A program made the position numbers and the translations under genes. From positions 1 through 64,000 of the forward strand of contig NZ_JAATOT010000009.1 of assembly GCF_011806455.1 (NCBI RefSeq): DNA of 64,000 nt. Direction: 5' to 3'. Positions within the stretch are counted from its first letter, which is position 1. Every line of letters begins with the position of its first letter. Below, piece by piece: positions 27,825 to 42,050 of the stretch. A model generated the notes under the pieces. The model was not told the DNA's origin, searched no databases, and was given only the letters and a program-made list of their open reading frames with translations. This stretch comes from Celeribacter sp. HF31. Lineage in GTDB: Bacteria; Pseudomonadota; Alphaproteobacteria; Rhodobacterales; Rhodobacteraceae.

Positions 27825-28442
27825 CTAGTCGGGCTTATGGTCCAGGCTCGCGCGGGTGGCCTGCGCACCCACCGCGCGGTAACGCAGTCCGTCAACCAGT
27901 AGAGCGACCAACCGACGCGCCGGTGCAGGGTCTCCATCGCTTGAGGGCATGCACAGGCTCGCGACAGCCCGCAGGAGATCGTAGGGATTTGCGTCGGGCC
28001 GTATTTCCTCTGCAGCGACGGCCGCATCCAGCAAACGTCGCAACGCGGGCTCAAACCGGCTGTCGAAATAGGCAGGCAGAGCTTCGAACGCCGGGTCTCC
28101 TGAATGCAGGGCGGCAGCCAGTCCGCGCTTGGCAACGATGAAATCGACATAGCGTTGCATCCAGCGGTCAAGCGCCTCCCCCGGAGGATAGGTCCTTGCC
28201 AGATCTGACGCAGCCTCCGCGCAGGCGTCCACCTCGCTGCGAAACACCGCCGCGATCAGATCGGAGCGCTGCGGAAAGTTTCGGTAGATGGTTCCAACGC
28301 CAACGCCAGCCCTATCAGCGATCTCGCGCATGGGCGTCTCGACCCCCGACGTGGCAAAGATGTCCCGTGCCGTCCGAACGAGTGTCTCGATGTTGCGCTT
28401 TGCATCTGCGCGCAGATTTCGGTGCGATGGTCTGTCAGGCAT
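27825..28442 (-). CDS. TetR-family repressor
   Basis: About 205 residues. The N-terminal helix-turn-helix reads TPMREIADRAGVGVGTIYRNFPQRSDLIAAVF, typical of TetR. The ATG at 28442 has TTTGGAG upstream; longer frames would run through the operators at 28478-28516. It is divergent from the SDR gene and very likely represses both. The effector is unknown. Confidence 0.88.
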   Translation of the reverse strand: MPDRPSHRNLRADAKRNIETLVRTARDIFATSGVETPMREIADRAGVGVGTIYRNFPQRSDLIAAVFRSEVDACAEAASDLARTYPPGEALDRWMQRYVDFIVAKRGLAAALHSGDPAFEALPAYFDSRFEPALRRLLDAAVAAEEIRPDANPYDLLRAVASLCMPSSDGDPAPARRLVALLVDGLRYRAVGAQATRASLDHKPD

Positions 28443-28477
28443 GAGCTCCAAAACTCCTTCAAAGCGCGCTTGATAAA

Positions 28478-28516
28478 CGGAACAATGTTCCGTATATGAG
28501 CGGAATAACGTTCCGC
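28478..28516. promoter_or_regulatory. Two TetR-type operators between the TetR and SDR genes
   Basis: CGGAACAATGTTCCG (28478-28492) and GCGGAATAACGTTCCGC (28500-28516) are two copies of one dyad, with arms CGGAA and TTCCG, centred 23 bases apart. They sit in the 127-base divergent gap, as expected for autoregulation plus control of the SDR. Confidence 0.8.
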
Positions 28517-28569
28517 TTAATACGCTTTCGAGCCCGATAGCGCCAGCAAGGAATGAAAGGAAAGTCATC

Positions 28570-29316
28570 ATGTCAGACAAACGCGTAGCTCTCATCACGG
28601 GAGCCACTCAAGGGATCGGCCTCCAGATCGCCAAGGATCTGGTTGCAAAAGGCCTGACCGTACTTGTCGGCGCACGCGACATGGAAAAGGGTGAACGGGT
28701 CGCGCAGGACATCGGCGCGGCAGCCCACGCCCTCCAGCTCGACGTCACGGATGAAGCCTCGATCGCTCAGGCGGCCGCTCTCATTCGCACCAGGTTTGGA
28801 CGCCTTGATATCCTGATGAACAATGCCGGGATCTCTCGGGTGAACTCCAACGAGGCGTTTTCGGAGGCACTCACGAAGAACCAGCTGACCGACGCCCCTC
28901 TGGGCGATATCCGCACCGTATTCGAGACCAACGTATTCGGGGTCATCGCAGTGACCCAAGCGATGCTCCCGCTTCTACGCGAAGCACCGGCAGGCCGCAT
29001 CGTCATCACCGGCAGCTCTGGCGCCTCGCTGACGCTCAACTCCGACCCCGCCAACGATCATCGGCGCATGTTCGGCAATTACTCGGTTTCGAAGACGGCA
29101 GCGCATGCGGTGATGCTGGCCTTTGCGCTTGCGCTTGAAGGGACCAACATCAAGGTCAATGCCGCCTGCCCAGGATTCACCTCCACGGCCCTCAACAACT
29201 TCAACGGCACGCGCAGCGTGGAAGACGGCGCGCGGGAACCGGTGCGACTTGCCCTGATCGACGACGATGGCCCGACCGGCACGTTCTCCGATGAAAATGG
29301 ACCTGTGCCCTGGTGA
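28570..29316 (+). CDS. Short-chain dehydrogenase/reductase
   Basis: A 248-residue classical SDR: cofactor motif TGATQGIG, NNAG motif, active-site Ser in ITGSSGAS and Tyr/Lys in YSVSKTAAH. It resembles plant and bacterial carbonyl reductases and would reduce a carbonyl with NAD(P)H. Start has an AAAGGAAAG site. Under probable TetR control, fitting a response to a toxic carbonyl or xenobiotic; substrate unknown. Confidence 0.88.
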   Translation: MSDKRVALITGATQGIGLQIAKDLVAKGLTVLVGARDMEKGERVAQDIGAAAHALQLDVTDEASIAQAAALIRTRFGRLDILMNNAGISRVNSNEAFSEALTKNQLTDAPLGDIRTVFETNVFGVIAVTQAMLPLLREAPAGRIVITGSSGASLTLNSDPANDHRRMFGNYSVSKTAAHAVMLAFALALEGTNIKVNAACPGFTSTALNNFNGTRSVEDGAREPVRLALIDDDGPTGTFSDENGPVPW

Positions 29317-29638: not shown

Positions 29639-30655
29639 ATGACATTCCAACCGACTTTGCCGACTCGCTCGCTCGGAGAAAACCTGTCCGTTTCCGCCCT
29701 CGGCTATGGGGCCATGGGTCTGAGCGAGTTTTACGGCGAGACCGATCCCGGGATTATTGACACCATGCTGATGACAGTGCTCAGCGAGGGGATAACCCTG
29801 ATTGACACCGCAGATGTCTACGGGCGCGGGCACAATGAGGAGATCATCGGCAAGGCCCTAAAAGCTGCGCCGACAGAAGAGCGGGCGGCCATGCGGATCG
29901 CCACGAAATGCGGCATCGACCGGCCGAAGGACGCCGCTTATGCGCGACGGATCAACAACGATCCGGCCTATATCCGCGCCTGCTGCGATGCCTCGCTGTC
30001 CCGCCTGGGCGTCGAACGCATCGACCTGTTTTACATTCACCGGGTGGACCCGGATGCCGATATTGCCGCGACCATGGAGGTGCTGGGCGATCTGCACAAG
30101 GCGGGCAAGATCGCCGGTGCGGGCCTGTGCGAAGTGTCTGCGGCAACATTGCGGCGCGCACATGAGGTGTTTCCGGTCACAGCGATCCAGAGCGAATATT
30201 CGCTTTGGACGCGCGATGTCGAAGAGGATATCCTGCCACTCACGCAGGAACTGGGCGTAGGGTTCGTTGCCTACTCGCCGCTCGGAAGAGGATTTCTAAC
30301 CGGGCGCTACAAGTCCACGGACAACCTGTCCGCCGGGGATTTTCGCCTCTCGAACGCGCGCTTTACCGGCGACAATCTGGATCGCAACACCGCGCTTCTG
30401 GCCAAGGTGGAAGCCTTCGCAGCACGCCACAATGCCAGCACCGGTCAGGTTGCCCTGGCTTGGCTTTTGGCCCAGGCGGAAAATATCGTACCGATCCCCG
30501 GCACCCGTTCGCCGGAACGGCTGCGCGAAAACATCGCGTCGCTGTCCCTGGACCTGTCCCACGAGGAGCTGACGACCCTGTCCGACATCTGGAAGCCTGG
30601 CGCCACCGCCGGAGAACGCTACAGTGCGGAGGGCATGAAAGGGATCAACGCCTGA
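29639..30655 (+). CDS. Aldo/keto reductase
   Basis: A 338-residue AKR of the Tas/YhdN-like group. Catalytic Asp and Tyr appear in LIDTADVYGRGHNEEIIGKAL and the lysine in RIATKCG; the late IVPIPGTRSPERLRENI segment is the cofactor-phosphate loop. It reduces aldehydes or ketones with NADPH. Its stop is 6 bases from the end of the convergent LysR gene. Confidence 0.9.
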   Translation: MTFQPTLPTRSLGENLSVSALGYGAMGLSEFYGETDPGIIDTMLMTVLSEGITLIDTADVYGRGHNEEIIGKALKAAPTEERAAMRIATKCGIDRPKDAAYARRINNDPAYIRACCDASLSRLGVERIDLFYIHRVDPDADIAATMEVLGDLHKAGKIAGAGLCEVSAATLRRAHEVFPVTAIQSEYSLWTRDVEEDILPLTQELGVGFVAYSPLGRGFLTGRYKSTDNLSAGDFRLSNARFTGDNLDRNTALLAKVEAFAARHNASTGQVALAWLLAQAENIVPIPGTRSPERLRENIASLSLDLSHEELTTLSDIWKPGATAGERYSAEGMKGINA

Positions 30656-30661
30656 TCCCGC

Positions 30662-31579
30662 TCAGCCCGGGGTATGCCGTTTGAATTCCTCGATCATGCG
30701 CCGAACCTCGGGCCGCGCGCCCTGATCGCGCCAGATCACATAGATCGGGATCTGCAACTGATCGGAAATCTCGGGTGTCAGTGCCCGATAGACCACATTG
30801 GTATGGCGGACCGAGGTCCGGAGCGTTGGCAAAAACGTCGCCCCCTCCCCCGCTCCGATCCGTGAAAGCAGTTGAACGTGATCATCCGGCTCGCGCAAAC
30901 GTGGTGGGCGATATTGGTGATGCGCAAAGACCTGCTCGAAGATGTCGGCATAATGAGGGTTTTCATTTTTCGAGAACCAAAACAGGGGAAGATCGTCAAA
31001 ATCCTTGAAAGTCACGTGATCTTTCTGCGCGGCCGGATGATGCGCGGGCAAGGACACGCGGATGGTTTCAGTAAAGATCTGCAACCGATCTATGCTGTTG
31101 GGCGTATCGCGATAGGCACCGATGATCGCTGCATCCAACTCGCCCGATTCCACCAGCGACGCCAGATTGCGCGAGGCACCATATTCACGCTGAATCACCA
31201 CTGTATCGCCTATTTTATCCAACATATCTTTCATGATCGGCAAGGCGGTAAAGTCGAACATAAAGCTCAGCCCAATCTTGATCTGACGACTCAGCCGGTC
31301 CTCGGCATCGCTCATTCCCGCGATCGAACTTTCCAACATATTGATGATGCGTCGCGCGTCTTCGACAAAGACCTCACCCCCAGCCGTCAGGCTCACGTGA
31401 TGGGTTGAGCGGTCGAGCAAACGCACACCCAGAACATTCTCAAGCTCCTTGATCTGCCGTGACAGGGGCGGCTGCGACATGCCCAGGCGCGTCGCCGCTC
31501 TGCGAAAGCTCATTTCTTGAGCCACAGCGACGAAGCATCGGAGCTGCTGGATGGTGGGAAGGCGGTGAGACGTCACCAT
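30662..31579 (-). CDS. LysR-family regulator, probable controller of the AfsA-like operon
   Basis: A 305-residue LysR protein: winged helix at residues 7-65 (FRRAATRLGMSQPPLSRQIKELE) and a two-lobed effector domain similar in layout to CatM/BenM-type sensors of small aromatic or lactone acids. It is divergent from the nine-gene operon at 31768 with a 188-base AT-rich gap, the classical LysR arrangement, so it probably activates that operon in response to a substrate or product. Confidence 0.88.
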   Translation of the reverse strand: MVTSHRLPTIQQLRCFVAVAQEMSFRRAATRLGMSQPPLSRQIKELENVLGVRLLDRSTHHVSLTAGGEVFVEDARRIINMLESSIAGMSDAEDRLSRQIKIGLSFMFDFTALPIMKDMLDKIGDTVVIQREYGASRNLASLVESGELDAAIIGAYRDTPNSIDRLQIFTETIRVSLPAHHPAAQKDHVTFKDFDDLPLFWFSKNENPHYADIFEQVFAHHQYRPPRLREPDDHVQLLSRIGAGEGATFLPTLRTSVRHTNVVYRALTPEISDQLQIPIYVIWRDQGARPEVRRMIEEFKRHTPG

Positions 31580-31767
31580 AAGATAAGAATTCCTATTTTA
31601 AAACAAAAAGATACGACAAACCATCAAGTGTGCTTCGAGCCCATCCACGATCCAATATGAGTAATATCAAGAATAGTATTCCAAAATTCTGCGCCGCAGA
31701 AAAGAGTAGAAGTGCGAAACCTCAAAACAACCTGAGGTAATATCACTCTTTATAAGGAACGCTATCA
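31580..31767. promoter_or_regulatory. Divergent promoter region of LysR gene and AfsA-like operon
   Basis: AT-rich. A short palindrome GAATAGTATTC (31671-31681) and an ATAAGAATTCCTAT stretch near 31584 fit the T-N11-A style of LysR sites. AAGGA at about 31756 is the ribosome site for the first operon gene. No small gene is apparent. Confidence 0.5.
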
Positions 31768-32373
31768 ATGGCTTCGAAGTATCTTCTGATCTCGCGCTAT
31801 TCTTTCAAAACTGGCGCTGCGATTCCCTCGCACTTCATCGACGATGCCACCACCCGAAATTTCTGGTCGGACGCGCAGAACGAACTGATGCAGCTGCGTG
31901 CCTTTGAAGACCTGTCGGAGCTGCCCGACACTCTTGCAAAATGCGAATCTGAACTCAGCCAGGCCACCCCGGGACTGATCGGTGACGTCCGCCGCGAACT
32001 GGTCGACCTTGTTGAGCAGGTCAAGAGTGCCGAAGACGCACTGCCGCAGACGCCCTATGTGCAACTGCGACACGTCGAGGTGGTGCCCGAGCGGATGGCA
32101 GAATATCGCAAATGGCGCGAGGAAACCATTTTTGATGTGGTGCGCAGCCATGACGAGGTCGAGAGCTTTTCGGCCTATCATTCCCTGATCAGCGGCGTGC
32201 CCGGCGTGATGTTCGTGTCTGGTTTCAGCTGCCTCCCCGAGGCCTACGCCGCAGTGTTCAACAGCGAACGCTACAAGACCATCGTTCAGCAAGCCGGCGA
32301 CGGCTATATCACCGGCGGCACCGACGGGCTTTACACCCGGATCTACAACGGTTTGTCCAGCCTTGCCGCCTGA
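31768..32373 (+). CDS. Unknown protein, first gene of the AfsA-like operon
   Basis: A 201-residue protein I do not recognise. No signal peptide or membrane helix. The C-terminal half (VQLRHVEVVPERMAEYRKWREETIFDVVRSH, then SAYHSLISGVPGVMFVSGF) has the rhythm of a dimeric alpha-beta barrel (NIPSNAP/EthD-like), a fold used by small cofactor-free enzymes. The N-terminal half is helical and acidic. It leads the operon and is 38 bases from the AfsA-like gene. Confidence 0.75.
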   Translation: MASKYLLISRYSFKTGAAIPSHFIDDATTRNFWSDAQNELMQLRAFEDLSELPDTLAKCESELSQATPGLIGDVRRELVDLVEQVKSAEDALPQTPYVQLRHVEVVPERMAEYRKWREETIFDVVRSHDEVESFSAYHSLISGVPGVMFVSGFSCLPEAYAAVFNSERYKTIVQQAGDGYITGGTDGLYTRIYNGLSSLAA

Positions 32374-32411
32374 CCTTTCATTCCCCTCCCCCGAAGTAAG
32401 CGAGAAGTATC

Positions 32412-33137
32412 ATGGAAAATCATGAGATTGTTGTTGTCGGTGACCAATTCCACCAATTCGCTAACGGAAAGAACGCCATTACCCAGTCGGAGTTTCTCGC
32501 ATTGTCGAGCCTGCCGGACTGCTGTTTTCGCAGCAAAATGCGACTGACCCTCGGCCAGGGCGTGCGCCATGACGAGGTATCGAAGATTATTGAAACCAAC
32601 GGGTTGGCTCAAAAGGTCGATTTCACCGATCTGCACCGCATCGGCCTACGCGCCCCCGGCACCCATTCGCACAAGCGTCAGATTCATAACACCGTCATCG
32701 CCAAGCCGGAACGCATCGGGGAGGACCTGTATTCCTGCGCATTGCTCATTGACGAACGCTGCGAGCTGATGGGCGATCACCAGACCGGGCAGCACATCCA
32801 GGGCATGATCCTGATCGAGGCCTTCCGCCAATCTTTCCTTGCGGTGAGTGAGGAGTTCTATCCGCTGGAGGGCACCAACAAGACCTACTTCGTCATCAAC
32901 TCGATGGAGACATCGTTTTCCAACTTTGTCTTTCCGCTGCCGGCAGAGGTGCGGATCAACGTCATCGAATGCGATGCAAAACCATATCGCGTGCGGCTGC
33001 GGATGGAGATGACGGTGGAGCAATGCGGCGTCCCTTGTGCCGATTGCAAAGCACTGTTCACGGTCTACCCAGAGAGCGTTATCGCCGAGAAGGAAAAACA
33101 GCTCGCCGACGAGGCCCTGTCGAAGGTAACGCAATGA
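32412..33137 (+). CDS. AfsA-like hotdog-domain protein (A-factor synthase family)
   Basis: A 241-residue protein. Residues about 85-225 match the AfsA hotdog pattern: a histidine-basic start (SHKRQIHNTVIAKPERIG), a central LIDERCELMGDHQTGQHIQG, the helix with GMILIEAFRQSFLAVSEEFY (compare LxEAxRQ in AfsA), and a strand pair FSNFVFPLPAEVRINV. AfsA makes gamma-butyrolactone autoregulators in Streptomyces by joining dihydroxyacetone phosphate and a beta-ketoacyl chain. Here there is one clear hotdog unit, whereas streptomycete AfsA has two. Operon mates include a HAD phosphatase and an SDR. Family call is from memory of the motif; the reaction is inference. Confidence 0.72.
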   Translation: MENHEIVVVGDQFHQFANGKNAITQSEFLALSSLPDCCFRSKMRLTLGQGVRHDEVSKIIETNGLAQKVDFTDLHRIGLRAPGTHSHKRQIHNTVIAKPERIGEDLYSCALLIDERCELMGDHQTGQHIQGMILIEAFRQSFLAVSEEFYPLEGTNKTYFVINSMETSFSNFVFPLPAEVRINVIECDAKPYRVRLRMEMTVEQCGVPCADCKALFTVYPESVIAEKEKQLADEALSKVTQ

Positions 33138-33976
33138 GCCTGTGCACCCCGATCGAATTGGAGCTGACACCGACAACACAGGGTCCGCTCTACCCGCCAA
33201 GCGAGATCTGCGATGGCGAAGGAAACTTCGTTGTCGTCGGGCGGATCTGTGACGGGCAAGGGGGGCCGGACTGGGGTGGGGCGATCGTATCGTCCCATAC
33301 CATCCCGCCCGCATTCGGCGAGGCTGGACGGTATGACATCCTGCGCCGCTTCGATCCCACAGCCCTGCCCGCCGATCTAGAGGATGAGGTTCTGTGGACC
33401 CTGCCATTGCCTCTGCCATGCAACAATTACCCCATGCTTTTTGCGCCGGAACAAGCCCCCGAGGCACATCGCACGAAACGCATAAGCGCTCCGTTACATG
33501 CGGCCTATGTACCCGATGCGCGTCCCGAAGACGGGCTGCGTGAAATCGCGCCCGTCACGTTGGGCGACTGGCTGAAGGCTCGGGGTCAGATCGTGGTGTC
33601 GCTGACATCGGATAGGCGTAAAGCCCTGTTCGAGATGGAATTTTCCCACCTCGTGCCAAACAGCGTGTACACGGTCATGAGCCTGCGCCAGCACGATTTG
33701 CGCCCCGACAGCCCAACGAGACCAGGGCCGCTTGGCATTCCCAATGTCTTTGTCACCGATGCCCAGGGGCGGGGGCGGTTCGAGGCCTTGCTCCCCGATC
33801 CCTTTCCCGATCCATCGCGCCCCGGGGCGAACCGCATCATCAACGTGATCCTGCTCTATATGAGCACACGCATGAGCTATGGCGGTGCGATCGGATTGCA
33901 CGGATTGGGCGCGGATATCCATGCCCAGCTCAAACTGACAGAACCGGCTTTCTCCGATCTGGTGACCGTCGCCTGA
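33134..33976 (+). CDS. Unknown protein of the AfsA-like operon
   Basis: A 280-residue protein not recognised. It starts at an ATG overlapping the AfsA-like stop by four bases. No signal peptide. The C-terminal part (residues about 150-280) reads like a beta sandwich: GQIVVSLTSDRRKALFEME, LVPNSVYTVMSLRQHD, then IPNVFVTDAQGRGRFEALLPDPFP, followed by a histidine-containing GGAIGLHGLGADIHAQ near the end. Tight coupling to the AfsA-like gene suggests it acts on the same molecule. Confidence 0.75.
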   Translation: MSLCTPIELELTPTTQGPLYPPSEICDGEGNFVVVGRICDGQGGPDWGGAIVSSHTIPPAFGEAGRYDILRRFDPTALPADLEDEVLWTLPLPLPCNNYPMLFAPEQAPEAHRTKRISAPLHAAYVPDARPEDGLREIAPVTLGDWLKARGQIVVSLTSDRRKALFEMEFSHLVPNSVYTVMSLRQHDLRPDSPTRPGPLGIPNVFVTDAQGRGRFEALLPDPFPDPSRPGANRIINVILLYMSTRMSYGGAIGLHGLGADIHAQLKLTEPAFSDLVTVA

Positions 33977-34018
33977 CCGCATTTTTCCCCTCTTCCTTCC
34001 AAACCGAAAGGAACCCCG

Positions 34019-34252
34019 ATGCCCTTTGTCACCATCACCACCTGGAAATCCGACGACGATACCGCCGCAGAACAGTTGATGAGCGCGGTCACCCGCGCGG
34101 TCCACGATGCCACCGGCGCACCTCTCGACAAGATCGCCGTTGTCATCTCCGAAATTCCCAAGAGCCGCTGGTCCGAAGCCGACGTGCTCGCCACAGATCC
34201 CGCATTTTCGACGCTCAGCAGGCGTATGAGCTACGAGAAGGACCCGACATGA
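34019..34252 (+). CDS. 4-oxalocrotonate tautomerase-family protein
   Basis: A 77-residue protein beginning Met-Pro-Phe-Val; removal of Met exposes the catalytic Pro1 of the tautomerase superfamily. The pattern LMSAVTRAVHDATGAPLDKIAVVISEIPKSRW is typical. Members tautomerise enols, dehalogenate or hydrate unsaturated acids. Here it may isomerise an enol or butenolide intermediate. Overlaps the phosphatase gene by four bases. Confidence 0.87.
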   Translation: MPFVTITTWKSDDDTAAEQLMSAVTRAVHDATGAPLDKIAVVISEIPKSRWSEADVLATDPAFSTLSRRMSYEKDPT

Positions 34253-34956
34253 GCTACGCGTTTTTTGATGTCGACGACACGCTTATTCGGATCAAGAGCA
34301 TGTTCGACTTCTTTCCCTTCTGGTGCGACCTGCAGGGAGCGCCAGAGACGCTGGACCGGTTCAACACAGCCTTTGAACACGCCTTTTCCGAACGTCGCCC
34401 GCGCGAAGACCTGAACCGGCTGTATTATCGCTTTTTCGCTGGCGAAAACGAGATGCAACTCTTGGCGGCGGGGCGGCTTTGGGTCAAACGGCGTTTTGGT
34501 GCGCAAGGGCTTTCCGAGGCGATGATTTTTCCCGAAGTGCTCGAACGGTTGCGCGCGCATCGCGCTGGCGGCGTGGCACCAGTCTTTGTCTCGGGGTCGT
34601 TTCCCGCGCTTCTGACCCCGCTGGCGCAGCGTATGGGCGCCGAGCACATCCTTTGCACACGACAGGAAACCGGTCCGGACGGGACACTGACCGGAGAGAT
34701 CCTGCGACCGCAGACCATCGGCACCGGCAAGGCCGACGCCATCGCCGCGTTTCTACAACAGCACGGCACCGATCCACGCACCTGCTTTGCATATGGCGAT
34801 GACATGTCGGATCGCACGATGCTCGAAGCCGTCGGGCATCCGGTTGCCGTGATCGGGTCGCCGGATCTGGCCGATCTGGCCCGGGCACGCGGCTGGGAAT
34901 GCCTCACAACAATCGCGCCCAAACCCGCCTTCGCGGGAGAAAGCACAACGTCATGA
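34249..34956 (+). CDS. HAD-superfamily (IB, SerB-like) phosphatase
   Basis: A 235-residue HAD phosphatase: nucleophile motif DVDDT (Asp7, Asp9), Ser in VSGSFPALL, Lys in GTGKADA and the acidic YGDDMSD motif. The subclass IB cap suits small phosphate monoesters. In gamma-butyrolactone synthesis a phosphatase removes the phosphate left from dihydroxyacetone phosphate, and this gene is placed suitably for that; serine phosphate or another monoester cannot be excluded. Confidence 0.88.
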   Translation: MSYAFFDVDDTLIRIKSMFDFFPFWCDLQGAPETLDRFNTAFEHAFSERRPREDLNRLYYRFFAGENEMQLLAAGRLWVKRRFGAQGLSEAMIFPEVLERLRAHRAGGVAPVFVSGSFPALLTPLAQRMGAEHILCTRQETGPDGTLTGEILRPQTIGTGKADAIAAFLQQHGTDPRTCFAYGDDMSDRTMLEAVGHPVAVIGSPDLADLARARGWECLTTIAPKPAFAGESTTS

Positions 34957-36152
34957 CCTCTGCTGACACTCATATTCACACAAGCGGCACCCGCCTAAGC
35001 CGCCGCCTGCCCTTTCTGTCCGTGCTGATCGCATTGGCGGTGGGCTCGGTTTATGTCTCTCAACCGCTCTTCTTTCTGCTGGCAGAACGCTTTGCCACCA
35101 CACCGGAAACCATGCGTGATGTGTTTTCGATCACGGTGACCGTCTATGCGCTTAGTTTTTTCGTGGCTGGGCCACTGACCGATCTGTGGCCAACAACGCG
35201 GCTGATGGTCGGAGGCGCCGTCGTTCTGGGCCTGTGCCTGACGGCCGGAGCGCTCGCTCAGAGCGCCAGCACCTTTGTCATTGCAATGATCGCGGCCTCC
35301 GCGTCGGCGGCCTTTGTGCCTGCGGCGGGCTTTGCCTTGCTGGGACAGTCGGCACCGCAGGATATGCAGGGCGTTTACTTCGGCATTGCCATCGCAGCGT
35401 CGATTGTTGGCATCACCCTGTGTCGGAGCGTGAGCGCGGTGCTGGTGGCCTACATGGGCTACACCCCGTTCATCCTGACCTTTGCGGCAGTGCTCATTTG
35501 TACCGCCCTGGCGGCACTGGTGCAGGGCAAGGCCGACGCGCCCGCCGCAGGAGGCGCGATCCTTGCAAAATATCGCCAATCCGTTGCCCTGCTCTTCGAA
35601 ACCGCAATCCTCGAGCGGTTGCTCGTCGGTGGGCTGCTGTTTTTCGGCTATCTCGGCCTTGCCACCTATCTGACTTTCCGGCTTGCGGCTGCGCCTTTCG
35701 GGTTGAACACCGCGCAAATCGGCCTCGTGAATGTTGCGGGGTTGATCGCTGTGGTGGGTGCGCCTGGTGCAGGCGTTGCGATCCGCCGCTGGGGCAGCCT
35801 GAGCGTCGGCATCTGCGGGTTGCTCTGCGCCATCACCGGCGCGCTGATCGTCTGGCAATCGCAGAGCCTGCCGCCAATGGCGCTCGGACTGATCCTTCTG
35901 TTTCTGGGCACCTTCGCCACACAGCCGGTCAAACTGGTCGAACTTTCTGCCGTGGCCGGCCCTGCTCGGCGCGGAGCGGTGTCCTCGCTCTACCTGCTGG
36001 TCTGCCTGTTGATGGGCGGTTTTTCGGCCAGCGCTCTCGGCCCGCTTTGGGCGACACAGGGCTGGAACGGTGTGGCTGCGGCCTCGGTCGGCGCTCTGTG
36101 CCTCGCGCTGGCCATCCACATTTTCCGTCGTCCCGCGCCGTCGGCATCATGA
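34953..36152 (+). CDS. Major facilitator superfamily transporter, 12-helix
   Basis: About 399 residues, twelve predicted membrane helices, starting at an ATG that overlaps the phosphatase stop. Early VGSVYVSQPLFFLLAERF and the loop PLTDLWPTTRLMVGG resemble the DHA1-type carriers of small organics and drugs. It probably exports or imports the operon's product. The in-frame extension upstream to 34899 is inside the phosphatase gene and is not used. Confidence 0.88.
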   Translation: MTSADTHIHTSGTRLSRRLPFLSVLIALAVGSVYVSQPLFFLLAERFATTPETMRDVFSITVTVYALSFFVAGPLTDLWPTTRLMVGGAVVLGLCLTAGALAQSASTFVIAMIAASASAAFVPAAGFALLGQSAPQDMQGVYFGIAIAASIVGITLCRSVSAVLVAYMGYTPFILTFAAVLICTALAALVQGKADAPAAGGAILAKYRQSVALLFETAILERLLVGGLLFFGYLGLATYLTFRLAAAPFGLNTAQIGLVNVAGLIAVVGAPGAGVAIRRWGSLSVGICGLLCAITGALIVWQSQSLPPMALGLILLFLGTFATQPVKLVELSAVAGPARRGAVSSLYLLVCLLMGGFSASALGPLWATQGWNGVAAASVGALCLALAIHIFRRPAPSAS

Positions 36153-36186
36153 CATGGCCGCTTCCAATCCAATCAAAGGAAATCCC

Positions 36187-36972
36187 ATGAACTCTCCAAT
36201 CGTCATTGCCGGTGCAACCGGCGGCATGGGGGCGGCCATCGCCCTGGAACAACTCAGCCTCGGGCGTTCCGTCATCGCGCTGGGGCGCTCCGCCGAAAAG
36301 CTTGATCGGTTGCAGGCCTTGGCCGATGAAAATGGGCGCTACACGCAGATGGGTGAACTGCACAAATGCCAGGTCGAGATCACCGACCCCGAGGCCTGTC
36401 GCGACGTTGCCGCCGACATCATTGCCCGTCACGGATCGCTGGGCGGTTACGTGCACGCTGCGGGCATCGGTCATTGCGGTCCGCTGATGCAGACCAGCGA
36501 TGCAAACTGGACCGAAGCCTTTGAAATCAAAGTCAATGCGGCGGCACGGATGATCCGTCTTTTGATGCCCGGTTTCGACGGGGCGCCAGCGGCGAGCATC
36601 GTGCTGATTGGCGGCGTCTTCGCCAAGGAGCCCAACGGGTTGTTCGCGATCAACAGCACGCTGAACGCCGCGATAGCAGGGTTCGGCAAGTCGCTGTCGG
36701 GCGCACTGCGCGATAAGGGCATCCGCGTCAACGTGTTGCACCCAGGCGCCACGCGCACCGCGCAATGGTCGCAGCTTGCCACGGATGCAAGCCGCCTGTT
36801 GGGGATCACCGCCGACGAGGTGACCAATGCCACCGCTGCGCAGCTGATCGGGAACAAGCTTCTGGAACCGGGCGAGGTTGCCTCCGCCGTTTCGTTCCTG
36901 CTTGCCCCCGCCAACCGAAGCATGACCGGAACTCTGATGGTGCTGGACGGCGGCGAAACCAAAGCAATTTAA
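36187..36972 (+). CDS. SDR-fold protein with altered catalytic residues
   Basis: A 261-residue SDR: cofactor loop GATGGMGAA and HAAG in place of NNAG. In the active site the YxxxK pair appears replaced: by aligning RVNVLHPGATRT and the KSLSGAL helix, the positions read Asn and Asn (FAINSTLNAAI), and the usual Ser region reads LIGGVF. So it may bind NAD(P) without classical reductase chemistry, or use other residues. The ATG at 36187 follows an AAAGGAAA site. In butyrolactone pathways a reductase of this fold reduces the butenolide; whether this one can is open. Confidence 0.85.
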   Translation: MNSPIVIAGATGGMGAAIALEQLSLGRSVIALGRSAEKLDRLQALADENGRYTQMGELHKCQVEITDPEACRDVAADIIARHGSLGGYVHAAGIGHCGPLMQTSDANWTEAFEIKVNAAARMIRLLMPGFDGAPAASIVLIGGVFAKEPNGLFAINSTLNAAIAGFGKSLSGALRDKGIRVNVLHPGATRTAQWSQLATDASRLLGITADEVTNATAAQLIGNKLLEPGEVASAVSFLLAPANRSMTGTLMVLDGGETKAI

Positions 36973-37040
36973 AACTTTCGGACACCGCCACGGGCAGGAC
37001 AACCGCCGCCACAAGACGCGCCACGCGAAAGGACAATCTC

Positions 37041-37466
37041 ATGGCCCCACATCAGCAAACACCCAAGACGGAAACACGGCTCGAACGCGGCCGACGCGCC
37101 CTGGAGGCGATTGACGGACAAGCGGGACAAAAGGTGATCGACGCGCTGGCCGATATCTCGCCGGACTTCGCAGACTACCTGTTCGAGTTTCCGTTCGGCG
37201 ATATCTACACGCGCCCCGGCCTGTCGTTGCGCGACCGCGAGATCGCAACCATTGCCGCGCTGGCCGCTTTGGGCACAGCGCAACCGCAGCTCAAGGTGCA
37301 TATCGAAGCCGGGCTGAATGTCGGGCTCAGCCGCGATGAAATAACCGAAATTTTGATTCAGATGGCCGTTTACGCGGGGTTCCCGGCGGCGCTGAACGGG
37401 CTGTTCGCAGCCAAAGAGGTATTTGCCTCGCATGATGACCAAAACCCCCAGGAGAAAATCGCATGA
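37041..37466 (+). CDS. Carboxymuconolactone decarboxylase/AhpD-family protein
   Basis: A 141-residue helical protein with the family core PGLSLRDREIATIAALAALG and HIEAGLNVGLSRDEITEIL. PcaC members decarboxylate gamma-carboxymuconolactone; AhpD members have a CxxC pair, which is absent here, so it is nearer the PcaC side. A lactone-related role would suit the operon. ATG at 37041 has GAAAGGA upstream; longer frames overlap the SDR gene. Confidence 0.88.
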   Translation: MAPHQQTPKTETRLERGRRALEAIDGQAGQKVIDALADISPDFADYLFEFPFGDIYTRPGLSLRDREIATIAALAALGTAQPQLKVHIEAGLNVGLSRDEITEILIQMAVYAGFPAALNGLFAAKEVFASHDDQNPQEKIA

Positions 37467-38284
37467 CCACGACACGCCGTACCTTCCTTGCACGGGGCAT
37501 CGCCCTGCCTTTTGCCCTGCCTTTTGCCCTGTCTGCCAGCACCGCACGCGCGACCGCCGCAGGCCCCGAACAGCTCTGGAGCCGCGTCAGATCTCCGGTT
37601 GGAATGGCTTATGATGCCCATGGTGCTCTGTTCGTTGCCGAATGGGGCGCCGGACGCGTAAGCAAATTCACACCCTCTGGCGAACGCGAGACCTTTGCCA
37701 GTGGACTGTCGGGTCCATCAGGTCTGGCCATTGGAGCAGATGGCACAATCTATGTCGCCTCCTACTCCAGCGATGTGATCTGGAGCTTTTCTCCGGACGG
37801 CAAGCGGAGCACCCATGCGACCGGGCTCGCCACCCCCGCCGGGCTCAGCTTTGACCGTTCGGGGCAACTTTTGGTCGCAAACCGGCGCACCCATCAGATC
37901 CTTGCGGTGGAACGCAGCGGGTTGCGTCCGGTCATCAGCGATCTCAATACGCCGGTCGGCGCAGTGCAAACCCCCGATGGCGGCTATGTCGTTTCGAATA
38001 TCGCCGGTGGCGTCACCATCGTGCGTCCCGATGGCTCCCGCCTAGAGGCCGGACAGGCGTTCAGCACCCCTGGGCCTGGTATTGCGATCACCGACAGCGG
38101 GCGCGTCTTTGTCGTTGATTATGGTGGCACCGAGGTCCGCGAGATCCTGATGAGCGGCGGTTCCCGGGTCTACGCCGACGGGTTTTCAAGCCCGGTCGGT
38201 CTGGTCGTTACACCGGATCAAAGCGCTCTGCTGACCGCCACCTGGGGCGAGAGCGCTATCTTCCGCATTCCTCTCTCCAGCTGA
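37463..38284 (+). CDS. Exported SMP-30/NHL-type beta-propeller, lactonase-like
   Basis: A 273-residue protein with a twin-arginine leader (TTTRRTFLARG) and cleavage near ARATAA, then six propeller repeats such as GLSGPSGLAIGADGTIYVASY and ISDLNTPVGAVQTPDGGYVV. SMP-30/gluconolactonase relatives open lactones with a metal ion. Overlaps the previous gene by four bases and ends the operon. A periplasmic lactonase would inactivate or take up a lactone; a structural role is possible. Catalytic metal ligands cannot be assigned confidently. Confidence 0.82.
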   Translation: MTTTRRTFLARGIALPFALPFALSASTARATAAGPEQLWSRVRSPVGMAYDAHGALFVAEWGAGRVSKFTPSGERETFASGLSGPSGLAIGADGTIYVASYSSDVIWSFSPDGKRSTHATGLATPAGLSFDRSGQLLVANRRTHQILAVERSGLRPVISDLNTPVGAVQTPDGGYVVSNIAGGVTIVRPDGSRLEAGQAFSTPGPGIAITDSGRVFVVDYGGTEVREILMSGGSRVYADGFSSPVGLVVTPDQSALLTATWGESAIFRIPLSS

Positions 38285-38333: not shown

Positions 38334-38364
38334 AAGGGGAGTGACGAAGTCACTCCCCTTTTTT
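38334..38364 (+). terminator. Strong rho-independent terminator of the AfsA-like operon
   Basis: GGGGAGTGAC and GTCACTCCCC form a perfect 10-bp stem with loop GAA, followed by six Ts. It marks the end of the 31768-38284 transcription unit. Confidence 0.95.
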
Positions 38365-38731: not shown

Positions 38732-39571
38732 TCAGGCGAGGACGAAATCGTACTGCGCCGTCCACTCACCGCGCCGTTCTCCGGCGGTTTCCTGGACAAA
38801 ATCGACAATCAGCTCGCTTTTCACGCCGAAAACCGTGTCGTTCGAAATATAGGCATCCCCCGCGACAAACGTGTGCGTGATAAGAGGTTTGTATCCGTTG
38901 GCCATCACGCGAAAATGGGTATGCGCCGGGCGATACGGATGACGCCCGATCTGGCGTAGCATCTTGCCGACCGGGCCGTCATCGGGAATCGGATAGGACA
39001 CCGGCTTGATTCCGTAGAACCAATAGCGACCGTCGGTGCCGGTTCTGAACACGCCGCGATTGTTCCATTTCGGCTGAATATCGGGTTGCTGCACGTCATA
39101 AAACCCTTCGGCATTGTCCGACCACACATCGACCAAAGCCCCTTCGATCGGATTGCCCTCAAGATCGAGAACCCGCCCTTCGAACAAACAGCGCTCGCCC
39201 TTACCATCCAGAGAAATATCCGAACCCATGGCACGTTCCGGCGCCCCTTCGACGTGGAATGGCCCGAAAACGGTCGAGGGCGTGGCCCCCGCAGGTTTTC
39301 GGTTCTGAATGGCATCCACCAACATAGACACGCCCAAAACATCAGACAGCAGGATGTATTCCTGGCGTTCTTCGGAACAGATTTGACCTGTGGCCGTCAA
39401 AAACCCGATGGCAACGGCCCATTCCTCTTCTGTCAGCTCCACATCTTTTACGAAGGCATGCAAATGCTCTACAAGCGAGCGCATCACGTCTGCAAGCCGC
39501 TCCGGGACATCCGCACCGATACGCCCGTTGACAACCTCAACGGATTTACGTTCCTCAAAATAGGCACTCAT
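38732..39571 (-). CDS. Hydroxyquinol 1,2-dioxygenase-like intradiol dioxygenase
   Basis: A 279-residue intradiol dioxygenase with N-terminal dimerisation helices and a beta-sandwich core. Iron ligands are Tyr158 (GFYDV), Tyr193 (VSYPIP), His217 and His219 (AHTHF), spaced as in catechol 1,2-dioxygenases. Segments YPIPDDGPVG and GRHPYRPAH are typical of hydroxyquinol enzymes, which open 1,2,4-trihydroxybenzene to maleylacetate. The next upstream gene is maleylacetate reductase, which supports hydroxyquinol rather than catechol. Last gene of a five-gene minus-strand operon with a TRAP importer. Confidence 0.87.
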   Translation of the reverse strand: MSAYFEERKSVEVVNGRIGADVPERLADVMRSLVEHLHAFVKDVELTEEEWAVAIGFLTATGQICSEERQEYILLSDVLGVSMLVDAIQNRKPAGATPSTVFGPFHVEGAPERAMGSDISLDGKGERCLFEGRVLDLEGNPIEGALVDVWSDNAEGFYDVQQPDIQPKWNNRGVFRTGTDGRYWFYGIKPVSYPIPDDGPVGKMLRQIGRHPYRPAHTHFRVMANGYKPLITHTFVAGDAYISNDTVFGVKSELIVDFVQETAGERRGEWTAQYDFVLA

Positions 39572-39600
39572 TTGGGGTCTCCTCCTTCAAACAATCCCAA

Positions 39601-40659
39601 TTACGATTGTGGTGGCTCTCCGCGCCACGCCCGCGCCAGCATGTCTCTCAGCGCGCCTTCCTCGAGCGGTCTGGGATTGGCATAGGGGTTTTTCAAAGCC
39701 ATCTGCGCGGCCGTTGCGATCCCATTTTCCGGCATGCCCAGGTCTGCGAGGGCGCGCGGCGCACCAAGGCGCCCGGACAACTCATAGAGCGCCACGGCGG
39801 GATCCAACCCGAGCACATCTTGCAAGCGAACCATGACCGGCGCGATGGCGGGCGCGTTATACGCGAGGGAATGCGGCAGCATGACGGTATGCGTTTGCGC
39901 ATGCGGCAGATCGAAACTGCCGCCCAGCGTGTGGCAAATCTTGTGATGCAAGGACATCGCCACGGAGTCGAGGCACAGGCCACAGAGCCACGATCCGTAA
40001 AAAAGATCGGCCCGGACGCCCATATCCGTTGGAGAATCTGCCAGCTTTGGAAGGGCATTGGCCAAAACCTTGATCGCCTCCAGCGCCATAAGGTCGGTGA
40101 TAGGATTTGCGTCTGGTGCATAGAGCGCCTCCACGGCATGGGCCATGGCATTCATGCCCGACAGGCCGGACATGCCGAGCGGCAACCCCTGCGTCAACTC
40201 GACATCGTAAATCACCGTATCGGGGCGAATGGCGGGCGCACGACGGGTTGTCTTCACGCCCGCTTCCGTCTCGCCGAGGATATTTGTCATCTCGGAACCG
40301 GAATATGTCGTCGGCAGGCTGACATGCGCCAGCCCCTGACGCACGGCCAGCGCCTTTCCCAAACCAATGGTCGATCCGCCACCGATGGACACGACCCCGT
40401 CGGCCCCGCAGTTTTTCAGGTCATCGAGAGCCGACTGCGTCACGTCGACGGGCGTATGCATGGCGGCGCCCGAAAATACTGTCCACTCCCGGTTCTCAAG
40501 ACCTTCGGACAAAAGCTCGACGGCATCGGCCTGTTGAGGTGTGGTGAGAATGAGGGGATGCATGATCCCCAAACGATCCAGCTCTTCGCCAAGTGCCTTG
40601 CGGGCACCGGGCGCGAACAGAATGCGGCGCGCATGAGAGAGATAGGTGAAGTTTTTCAT
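39601..40659 (-). CDS. Maleylacetate reductase
   Basis: About 352 residues, iron-type dehydrogenase fold with the GVVSIGGGSTIGLGKALA cofactor block, LPTTYSGSEMTNI, and histidines in HAVEALY and SLHHKICHTLGG, the typical maleylacetate reductase pattern. It reduces maleylacetate to 3-oxoadipate with NAD(P)H. The ATG at 40659 follows AAAGG; the frame extends upstream without homology. 29 bases before the dioxygenase gene. Confidence 0.9.
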   Translation of the reverse strand: MKNFTYLSHARRILFAPGARKALGEELDRLGIMHPLILTTPQQADAVELLSEGLENREWTVFSGAAMHTPVDVTQSALDDLKNCGADGVVSIGGGSTIGLGKALAVRQGLAHVSLPTTYSGSEMTNILGETEAGVKTTRRAPAIRPDTVIYDVELTQGLPLGMSGLSGMNAMAHAVEALYAPDANPITDLMALEAIKVLANALPKLADSPTDMGVRADLFYGSWLCGLCLDSVAMSLHHKICHTLGGSFDLPHAQTHTVMLPHSLAYNAPAIAPVMVRLQDVLGLDPAVALYELSGRLGAPRALADLGMPENGIATAAQMALKNPYANPRPLEEGALRDMLARAWRGEPPQS

Positions 40660-40751
40660 CGTGAAGCCTTTGAAAGAAGCTTTTGGCACTCTGAGAGTGG
40701 CGGCAAGATGGGTGGGCCTCTGCCGGGAGGCCCACCGCAAAGCGCAGAGGG

Positions 40752-42050
40752 TCACATCATGTTAGGAATGAACAAGACGATGACAGGGAAGGCGAGGATC
40801 AGCGCGACGCGCAGCACATCGACCAGCAGGAAAGACACGAGACCGCGGAAGATCGTACCAAGCTGCACATCTTTGACGACGGATTTCAGAACAAAAGCGT
40901 TCAACCCAACAGGTGGGGTGATGTAGCTCACCTCAGTCACGATCACGACATAAATGCCGAACCAGATCAGGTCGAACCCCTGCGCGGCAACAATCGGATA
41001 AAAAATCGGCACCGTCAGCGTGATCATGGACAGACCTTCGAGCACGCAGCCGAGAACGAGATAGATGAGCGTGATGACGGCGATGACCATGAGGGGATGA
41101 TCTCCGATCGAGGTCACGAGCATCTGGATGTCGCGGGTCATGCCCGAGAGGTTCACGTAGTTCGCAAATGTCAGCGCGCCGAAGAGGATAAAGAACATCA
41201 TCGCCGTGGTCTTGGCGGTTTCATAGAGCGTGAGCAGGGTTTTGGCAAAGTTCAAACGGCCCTGAAGCAGAACCAGAAGGAACGCGCCCCCTGCCCCCAT
41301 GCCGGCACTTTCCGTCGGTGTGAAGACACCGAAATAGATGCCGCCCATCACAAAGGCGAAGAGACCGAGTGCGCCAGCGACGCCTTTGAGGGCAAAGATG
41401 CGCGCCCTAAGCGGCAGCTTGTCTTCCACCGGCAAATCAAAATGTCCGAAATGAACGGAGATGCGCACGGCAACCGCATAGAGCACAACGCCGAGAATGC
41501 CGGGAATGATGCCCGCGAGGAACAGTTTGCCGATATCCTGCTGAGTCATGATGCCGTAGAACACGAGGATCACGGAGGGCGGGATCAGGATGCCAAGCGT
41601 GCCGCCCGCCGCGATGGAGGCGGTCGACAGGCTGTCGGGGTAACCGAATTTGCGCATGTTCGGCAGGGCGATTTTCGCCATGGTGGACGCGGTCGCCAAA
41701 GACGAACCACAGACCGACGAGAATCCGCCACAGGCCACCACGGTCGCCACCGCCAACCCGCCCTTGCGGTGCCGGAGCCAGGCGTAAGCAGCGGAATAGA
41801 GGTCGCGTGCAATCCCCGATTGCACCACGAAATTCCCCATCATCAGAAACAGCGGCAGGATCGAGAGTGAATAGCTGCGGCTGTGCTCGAAATAGGTTTG
41901 GCCCAGCAGAGAAAAAGCCGGAGACCATCCAATGATCGCCGCCGTGCCGACCGTGCCCAGAAGCGCAAGTGCGAAAGAGATCGGAACGCCGAGAAACAGC
42001 AGGACAAACAGGACAAGCGTCCCGATTTCCCAATTGGCAAGCAAGGACAT
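40752..42050 (-). CDS. TRAP transporter large permease (DctM-like)
   Basis: A 432-residue multi-helix permease with GVPISFALALLGTVG at the start, the CGGFSSVCGSSLATASTMAKIALP segment and GGIYFGVFTPTESAGMGAGGAF. Pairs with the adjacent small permease. Its operon position upstream of ring-cleavage enzymes suggests uptake of an aromatic acid or phenolic acid. Confidence 0.92.
   Translation of the reverse strand: MSLLANWEIGTLVLFVLLFLGVPISFALALLGTVGTAAIIGWSPAFSLLGQTYFEHSRSYSLSILPLFLMMGNFVVQSGIARDLYSAAYAWLRHRKGGLAVATVVACGGFSSVCGSSLATASTMAKIALPNMRKFGYPDSLSTASIAAGGTLGILIPPSVILVFYGIMTQQDIGKLFLAGIIPGILGVVLYAVAVRISVHFGHFDLPVEDKLPLRARIFALKGVAGALGLFAFVMGGIYFGVFTPTESAGMGAGGAFLLVLLQGRLNFAKTLLTLYETAKTTAMMFFILFGALTFANYVNLSGMTRDIQMLVTSIGDHPLMVIAVITLIYLVLGCVLEGLSMITLTVPIFYPIVAAQGFDLIWFGIYVVIVTEVSYITPPVGLNAFVLKSVVKDVQLGTIFRGLVSFLLVDVLRVALILAFPVIVLFIPNMM

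Follow-up and report, generated by a model that had tools for sequence, protein, structure and literature searches.

A Celeribacter operon related to the AfsA-type killing cluster of Ruegeria pomeroyi

What is a gene for an AfsA-like protein doing in an alphaproteobacterial operon? Here we analyzed 64,000 nucleotides of Celeribacter sp. HF31 (contig NZ_JAATOT010000009.1, positions 1 to 64,000; hereafter the window), where positions 31768-38284 hold nine genes on one strand, g1 to g9 (Table 1), the second of which encodes the AfsA-like protein. A first-pass annotation had described these genes as a possible gamma-butyrolactone system yielding a lactone-like signal or antibiotic, and had left the direction, synthesis or breakdown, open. 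Our comparison indicates that the operon is most probably a variant form of an AfsA-type antibiotic cluster of a kind published in 2020 for Ruegeria pomeroyi. With somewhat better than even confidence, we propose that it makes a small diffusible antibiotic like the R. pomeroyi killing factor, together with a product-sensing LysR regulator and an immunity module.

R. pomeroyi kills diverse bacteria by means of a diffusible factor that requires its AfsA cluster (Sharpe et al. 2020, PMC7426152); among the loci compared here, this phenotype is documented for strain DSS-3 alone. In the excerpted text of that report, insertions in SPOA0341, SPOA0342 (AfsA) and SPOA0344 (regulator) abolish killing, and the mutants differ in immunity: afsA mutants are immune, SPOA0341 mutants partly sensitive and SPOA0344 mutants the most sensitive (PMC7426152). 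Transcription of 10 cluster genes needs AfsA, out of 21 AfsA-dependent genes altogether, and SPOA0339-0343 account for 1-6% of the proteome (the latter cited in PMC7426152). Since hypothetical proteins flank SPOA0342 and the order in the record agrees, we equate SPOA0343 with g1 and SPOA0341 with g3. The genes for g1, AfsA, g3, the tautomerase (g4) and the HAD phosphatase (g5) stand in the same order in R. pomeroyi DSS-3 and in the window, with 41-57% identity. The aldo/keto reductase (AKR) is 51% and the carboxymuconolactone-decarboxylase-like protein (CMD) 42% identical to that of the window, and both clusters include a LysR gene and a major facilitator superfamily (MFS) gene and lie on a plasmid, a probable one in the case of the window. 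The window differs in having an added short-chain dehydrogenase/reductase (SDR) and NHL propeller, and in the placement of AKR, CMD and MFS.

The same block of genes recurs well beyond these two species. A pattern-based search with the window AfsA protein led to at least 24 further loci in a GTDB-based collection and to one in the R. pomeroyi megaplasmid. We compared 27 loci (the window, L007-L031 and L036, with R. pomeroyi as L031), joining families by BLAST over entire loci, up to ~10 kb per side and 15 kb for L031. L001-L006, L038 and L039 were left out and L040 and L041 described apart; contig ends truncate L007, L025 and L030, and the AfsA gene of L028 is broken. AfsA occurs in all 27 loci, g1, HAD and LysR in 25 each, g3 in 24, CMD in 20, the tautomerase in 19, AKR in 18 and an acetyl-CoA acetyltransferase-type thiolase in 15, with the MFSb subgroup (5) and NHL (4) rarer; paralogues that are unlinked or belong to a different subgroup enter the counts for LysR, SDR (10) and MFSa (16), and distant L029 proteins enter that for AKR. 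The window AKR, itself one of the 18, shares 46-64% identity with its counterparts elsewhere, except for three more distant proteins of L021 and L029 (31-42%).

Gene order is kept as well as gene content. AfsA, g3, (tautomerase) and HAD are consecutive in 23/27 loci, g1, AfsA and g3 in 21/27, and all five genes from g1 to HAD in 17/27, the window and R. pomeroyi included, and in 14 a divergent LysR gene immediately precedes g1. The block g1-AfsA-g3-(tautomerase)-HAD is found in R. pomeroyi, Enterobacterales and Burkholderiales; a Streptomyces plasmid has another order, with genes for beta-ketoacyl-ACP synthase III (KAS III), acyl carrier protein (ACP), a TauD-type dioxygenase, AfsA, HAD, g1, g3 and AKR consecutive. 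In our judgement, the retention of this order in many genera and two phyla lies far beyond chance. G3 itself is rare, occurring in 2/390 genomes of the order and 2/398 of the phylum (own genome included in both, and one of the two phylum-level genomes having only a distant partial match); AfsA domains occur in 9/390 genomes of the order. In another genus of the family, AfsA-HAD pairs (L047 in G460, L048 in G386) lie beside a frame that looks MFS-like by eye, with no g1 or g3 in the short stretch examined. Photorhabdus loci L008, L009 and L017 have EamA and SDR genes nearby instead of the tautomerase, AKR and usual MFS, and may carry a different immunity part.

The AfsA-like assignment of g2 is borne out by a profile search, which gave PF03756 as the single match in the whole genome (57.2 bits against a cut-off of 24, E 2.3e-15). 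Residues D122, H123, H128, E136 and R139 are invariant in 16/16 aligned sequences, a set of chosen members (alignment A3), and the profile of this alignment weakly matches hotdog dehydratases among solved structures (E 0.01). Together with PF03756, this match points to a hotdog fold, and g2 is a putative butenolide-phosphate synthase. The HAD, SDR, tautomerase, CMD-like and MFS assignments were likewise upheld, all scoring over Pfam cut-offs (Table 1). The HAD protein has a DxD motif (by eye), and in g4 the start Met is followed by Pro, as in all 17 homologues listed.

G1 and g3, the two genes first described as unknown, match no Pfam or NCBIfam profile up to E 0.1. From VIA-align comparison of predicted structures alone, g1 is predicted to have a tandem ferredoxin-like oxygenase fold resembling that of antibiotic biosynthesis monooxygenases (ABM); the Pfam ABM profile is not matched at that threshold. 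G3 is predicted to have a superoxide dismutase (SOD)-like fold that lacks the SOD histidines. The Cu/Zn site of Cu,Zn superoxide dismutase is built from six His and one Asp; in alignment A1, g3 has one invariant His (H263) and one near-invariant His (H122, 15/17), and this histidine-rich site was not found. A sequence search of solved structures gave no relative of g3 and only two chance-level matches for g1. We also considered g3 as an intradiol dioxygenase, its start being alike by eye, and rejected it on a probability of 0.2% against the window's own dioxygenase. A distant g3 relative in L037 (8031-8981; 316 aa, 32% over ~140 residues) appears to be exported, with a signal read by eye, and an exported protein family may have given rise to g3. 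In an Alteromonadales metagenome-assembled genome (MAG), a second g3-like gene, 26% identical and in no Pfam family, is separated from the AfsA core by ~4-5 kb (L024, 4799-5980).

The last gene, g9, had been called an exported lactonase-like propeller. The propeller stands, with NHL and SGL over cut-off, and g9 is probably exported, having a twin-arginine-like signal read by eye. Activity as a lactonase is only possible, because the dedicated Lactonase model stays below its cut-off (16 against 21.7 bits); Vgb_lyase also falls short (47.5 against 50), and the invariant columns of an alignment of only 4 sequences hold no Glu or His.

The relatives offer a pointer to the acyl donor. Two in-cluster thiolases were scanned, those of Yersinia massiliensis and Erwinia persicina, and both exceed the TIGR01930 cut-off (acetyl-CoA C-acyltransferase). 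The in-cluster thiolases, and the KAS III and ACP genes of the Streptomyces relative, suggest that these clusters use acetoacetyl or another short beta-ketoacyl group as donor, and we infer an acetoacetyl donor for the window as well. The direction is thereby clearer than it first appeared, as thiolase or KAS III plus ACP fits synthesis, and the killing activity of the R. pomeroyi relative points the same way. In methylenomycin biosynthesis, an AvrD-like enzyme carries out an analogous butenolide step for which acetoacetyl-ACP has been proposed as donor (PMC12593393).

In the mechanism that we propose, the AfsA-type protein would join a beta-ketoacyl thioester, most likely acetoacetyl, to a C3 phosphate from glycolysis, for example dihydroxyacetone phosphate, giving a butenolide phosphate from which the HAD enzyme would remove the phosphate. 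The reductases, the tautomerase, the CMD-like protein, the ABM-like oxygenase g1 and g3 would tailor the product, and the MFS protein would export it. LysR would sense the product or an intermediate and switch on both biosynthesis and the immunity module (MFS efflux plus AKR), so that one molecule would act as antibiotic and inducer. If the product induced immunity by way of the regulator, this would account for the protection of R. pomeroyi afsA mutants next to the parent strain and for the lack of it in regulator mutants.

Natural deletions in Enterobacter form a series that helps to tell production of the substance from protection against it. We searched 61 genomes with an entire 8,097-base cluster, scoring the best 4 candidate places per genome; 3 carry the entire cluster, 4 carry reduced forms, and of the other 54, where weaker remnants could escape notice, 50 give matches of low identity alone (64-71%), which fall almost without exception in the thiolase part, and 4 give none. 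An E. hormaechei record aligns in pieces (89-92%) with the entire E. wuhouensis cluster (L018): AfsA and g3 are absent, g1, HAD, CMD and thiolase are stubs, and LysR, tautomerase, MFS and AKR are full length. G870 has the same reduced form, and G855 and G875 keep LysR, MFS and AKR alone. AKR is full length in 4/4 reduced clusters, and LysR, MFS and AKR are all full length in 3/4, with AfsA, g3, g1, HAD, CMD and thiolase gone or reduced to stubs. The open frames in G855, G875 and G870 keep 95-98% (LysR), 89-96% (MFS) and 88-94% (AKR) protein identity; in G875 the DNA is 80-83% identical, a lower conservation than that of the proteins. MFS has an internal position in the cluster, with deletions on both its sides. 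Since matches run into the HAD end in G875 and the CMD start in G855, deletion is suggested rather than an ancestral short form. From the intact retention of LysR, MFS and AKR where the biosynthetic genes were deleted, we infer that these three form an immunity module. The Enterobacter cluster had no match in 5,426 E. coli genomes, among which only near matches were searched.

A wider extension of this picture, which we regard as possible and clearly less probable than the antibiotic reading itself, is that these loci form a widely traded family of small antibiotics. Each would combine an AfsA-type enzyme with an acetoacetyl thioester and a C3 phosphate, the product doubling as inducer; LysR-MFS-AKR would be a separable resistance cassette, induced by the product, that outlives the biosynthetic genes, and the steps from butenolide to warhead would involve g1 and g3 as new types of enzyme.

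Several observations weigh against the antibiotic reading or its transfer to the window. No product is known, and the open-access literature searched gives no molecule, acyl donor or assigned immunity gene for the R. pomeroyi factor. The window operon contains neither thiolase nor KAS III, and a beta-ketoacyl-ACP of the host is an equally possible donor. SPOA0341 (g3) mutants are partly sensitive with the regulator intact, which would need polarity or an effect of an intermediate. The R. pomeroyi LysR is of another subgroup, only its 67-residue DNA-binding head matching that of the window (E 2e-6), and the window MFS has no BLAST match to the MFS of the R. pomeroyi or Enterobacter cluster. In the Enterobacter series, G852 has AKR and, of MFS, no more than the end; some of the deletions may be common to several reduced clusters; and LysR and AKR sit at the cluster ends, beyond the reach of internal deletions. 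Photorhabdus clusters do without the tautomerase, AKR and this MFS, and in the nearest relative of the window, the sister genome G007, g3 has an in-frame deletion of 282 bases. The window LysR is 36% identical over 303 residues to that of the Enterobacter cluster; the R. pomeroyi and Enterobacter MFS proteins are 44% identical to each other, and the window MFS is closest to those of L026 and L027. The immunity module therefore transfers to the window in part, AKR and LysR matching and MFS belonging to another subgroup. Given the LysR and MFS mismatch, regulation and immunity carry over by analogy rather than orthology, which lowered our confidence slightly and left it still a little above even.

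The best-surviving alternative, which we consider unlikely, is that the operon makes a gamma-butyrolactone-like autoinducer and that the antibiotic comes from other genes switched on by it. The AfsA domain and the AfsA-dependent transcription in R. pomeroyi fit such a scheme, and the authors, in the excerpted text, leave the option open (PMC7426152). However, 10 of the 21 AfsA-dependent genes are the cluster itself, which argues against a large separate regulon. The window AfsA protein also falls far below the ScbA/BarX cut-off (NF041195, 30.2 against 200 bits, in a comparison that had no true-ScbA positive control), and 0/6 further AfsA proteins reached it. The nearest TetR gene (27825-28607) scores 33.9 bits against a ScbR-family cut-off of 150, receptors elsewhere in the genome not having been sought, and part of it falls in stretches that G007 lacks. 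With this low ScbA/BarX score, a LysR that is not ArpA-type and g1 and g3 as extra core families, assignment to the Streptomyces gamma-butyrolactone systems is not supported, and of the lactone-like signal or antibiotic first proposed the antibiotic is the better reading, given the R. pomeroyi relative that kills.

The window version appears to have its own history. Among the compared loci, the best BLAST matches for LysR, g1, AfsA, g3, HAD and AKR are in Aquabacterium (L007) or a Lac Pavin MAG (L010); for the tautomerase, the best score is in Ewingella (L011); and for MFS, SDR, CMD and NHL, the best matches are in Leptothrix (L026) or a Burkholderiaceae MAG (L027). In an AfsA tree of 23 rows (chosen members), R. 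pomeroyi groups with G354 (99/92) and the window falls outside, although the window row belongs to no starred set. The different closest relatives of core and tail, together with this tree, suggest a separately acquired, mosaic cluster. G007 has most of the operon at ~98% DNA identity. Its contig C2 holds the operon region twice, near 700 kb and at the contig end (L038 and L039), 108 kb apart and, gaps aside, 99.9% identical, and the contig stops within the second copy; this is perhaps a circular ~108-kb replicon assembled more than once round.

It is improbable, in our view, that the operon is a mobile killing cluster now silent or decaying in the genus. The loss of 94 residues from G007 g3 would agree with decay, as would the presence of the operon in 2/20 same-genus genomes listed, its own included, but all nine window genes are open frames of expected length and the alignment shows no shortening of the window g3. 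A catabolic operon for a lactone or an aromatic-derived acid is the least probable reading: the tautomerase, CMD-like and propeller genes would suit it, as would genes for aromatic degradation at other places on the plasmid, the intradiol dioxygenase and iron-dependent alcohol dehydrogenase-type genes that follow the operon on the opposite strand, and the aromatic ring-hydroxylating dioxygenase genes that other plasmids carry in similar stretches. Against it, the two downstream genes have no match in L007-L031 at E 1e-4, relatives have a synthetic partner next to AfsA (thiolase, or KAS III plus ACP), and that of R. pomeroyi kills.

Set beside other AfsA systems, the antibiotic operon proposed here shares with the Streptomyces A-factor/gamma-butyrolactone systems (AfsA, ScbA, BarX) an AfsA domain with a phosphatase and reductases nearby. 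It differs in having one AfsA domain, far under the ScbA/BarX cut-off, a LysR beside the synthase rather than an ArpA-type receptor, and two extra core families. The AfsA domain of gladiofungin/gladiostatin synthesis is reportedly part of a polyketide synthase (PKS) pathway, and the window AfsA differs in being free-standing, with no PKS seen in the operon. That Burkholderia system, as its excerpted reports describe it, places an AfsA-type domain in proteobacterial antimicrobial synthesis (PMC7756420, PMC7756379). The methylenomycin mmy cluster is alike in yielding a small antibiotic with an acetoacetyl thioester proposed for the butenolide step; its enzyme MmyD, however, is not AfsA-like but is described as AvrD-like and using a pentulose (PMC12593393). 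Compared by description, a quorum-regulated operon of Chromobacterium subtsugae has AfsA and HAD-IB beside uncharacterised genes and an efflux system, but its partners are DUF2165, MarR and CdeAB-OprM (PMC12114271), and the Pseudomonas Ps664 'A-factor-like' cluster, likewise compared by description and not by sequence, has an AfsA-like protein, a hydrolase and an MFS transporter but includes a P450 (PMC8719888). An AfsA gene is reported on Pantoea ananatis ICEPan elements (PMC4458695). Pantoea clusters PNP-2 to PNP-4 may be of the same kind, although their excerpted descriptions do not mention AfsA, and PNP-5 is holomycin-like by description. New here are the g1 and g3 fold predictions, the pointer to an acetoacetyl donor, the Enterobacter deletion series and the differing relatives of core and tail. 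The locus comparison offers testable answers on the likely donor and on the two core-protein folds, and argues against taking every proteobacterial AfsA gene as a gamma-butyrolactone signal.

The layout agrees with the single operon first described. The gene calls were confirmed, ATGA four-base overlaps occur at 4/8 gene junctions (33134, 34249, 34953 and 37463), and the LysR gene is divergent, 188 bases from g1. The strong terminator is a computed 12-bp stem with a 3-base loop followed by a run of T, although a consensus terminator scan did not list it. The extent given earlier needs one addition, the AKR upstream of LysR. We rejected the idea that a LysR box is conserved ahead of g1: the promoter dyad in Table 1 and the window's other dyads were not found upstream of g1 in the 16 other loci inspected, and three enterobacterial loci (L018, L019 and L021) have a common dyad of their own. 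The operon is most likely on a repABC-type plasmid, because its contig of 102,392 bases carries the genome's only RepC match (contig C13, 65550-66053, minus strand; RepA and RepB were not sought).

Table 1 Features of the AfsA-type operon and its flanks in the window.
Feature	Coordinates	Strand	Basis or comment
AKR, aldo/keto reductase	29639-30655	+	part of system; putative immunity or reduction step
LysR-type regulator	30662-31579	-	HTH_1 1.3e-23, LysR_substrate 1.3e-22
Intergenic promoter region	31580-31767	.	6-bp dyad ACCTCA-N8-TGAGGT, beginning 49 bases before g1 start
g1, 201 aa	31768-32373	+	predicted tandem ferredoxin-like (ABM-like) fold; SPOA0343 homologue
g2, AfsA-type, 241 aa, single AfsA domain	32412-33137	+	PF03756; SPOA0342 homologue
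g3, 280 aa	33134-33976	+	predicted SOD-like beta-barrel with insertion; SPOA0341 homologue
g4, 4-oxalocrotonate-tautomerase-like	34019-34252	+	PF01361 5.9e-8, over cut-off
g5, HAD-IB phosphatase	34249-34956	+	PF12710 2.3e-29; TIGR01490 133.1 bits, cut-off 98.3
g6, MFS exporter, MFSb subgroup	34953-36152	+	PF07690 1.6e-20; putative efflux
g7, SDR	36187-36972	+	PF13561 (adh_short_C2) 1.6e-32
g8, CMD	37041-37466	+	PF02627 8.2e-22
g9, NHL/SMP-30-like beta-propeller	37463-38284	+	PF01436 3.5e-17; SGL 44.6 bits, cut-off 26.3
Rho-independent terminator, stem-loop then T	38334-38360	+	fold and sequence

Further genes flank these features. Upstream of AKR, the start of the TetR-type gene (minus strand) overlaps that of a divergent SDR gene (28570-29316, plus strand), and the two are both partly within stretches missing from G007. 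Downstream, the intradiol (chlorocatechol/catechol-1,2-dioxygenase-like) and iron-containing alcohol dehydrogenase-type genes adjoin the operon at 38732-40755 on the minus strand, a pair that resembles aromatic ring-cleavage breakdown. Beyond them, positions 41000-64000 hold genes for a TRAP transporter, a GMC oxidoreductase and aromatic ring-hydroxylating dioxygenase and resemble plasmid stretches of Martelella, Gemmobacter and Sagittula at 76-78% identity.

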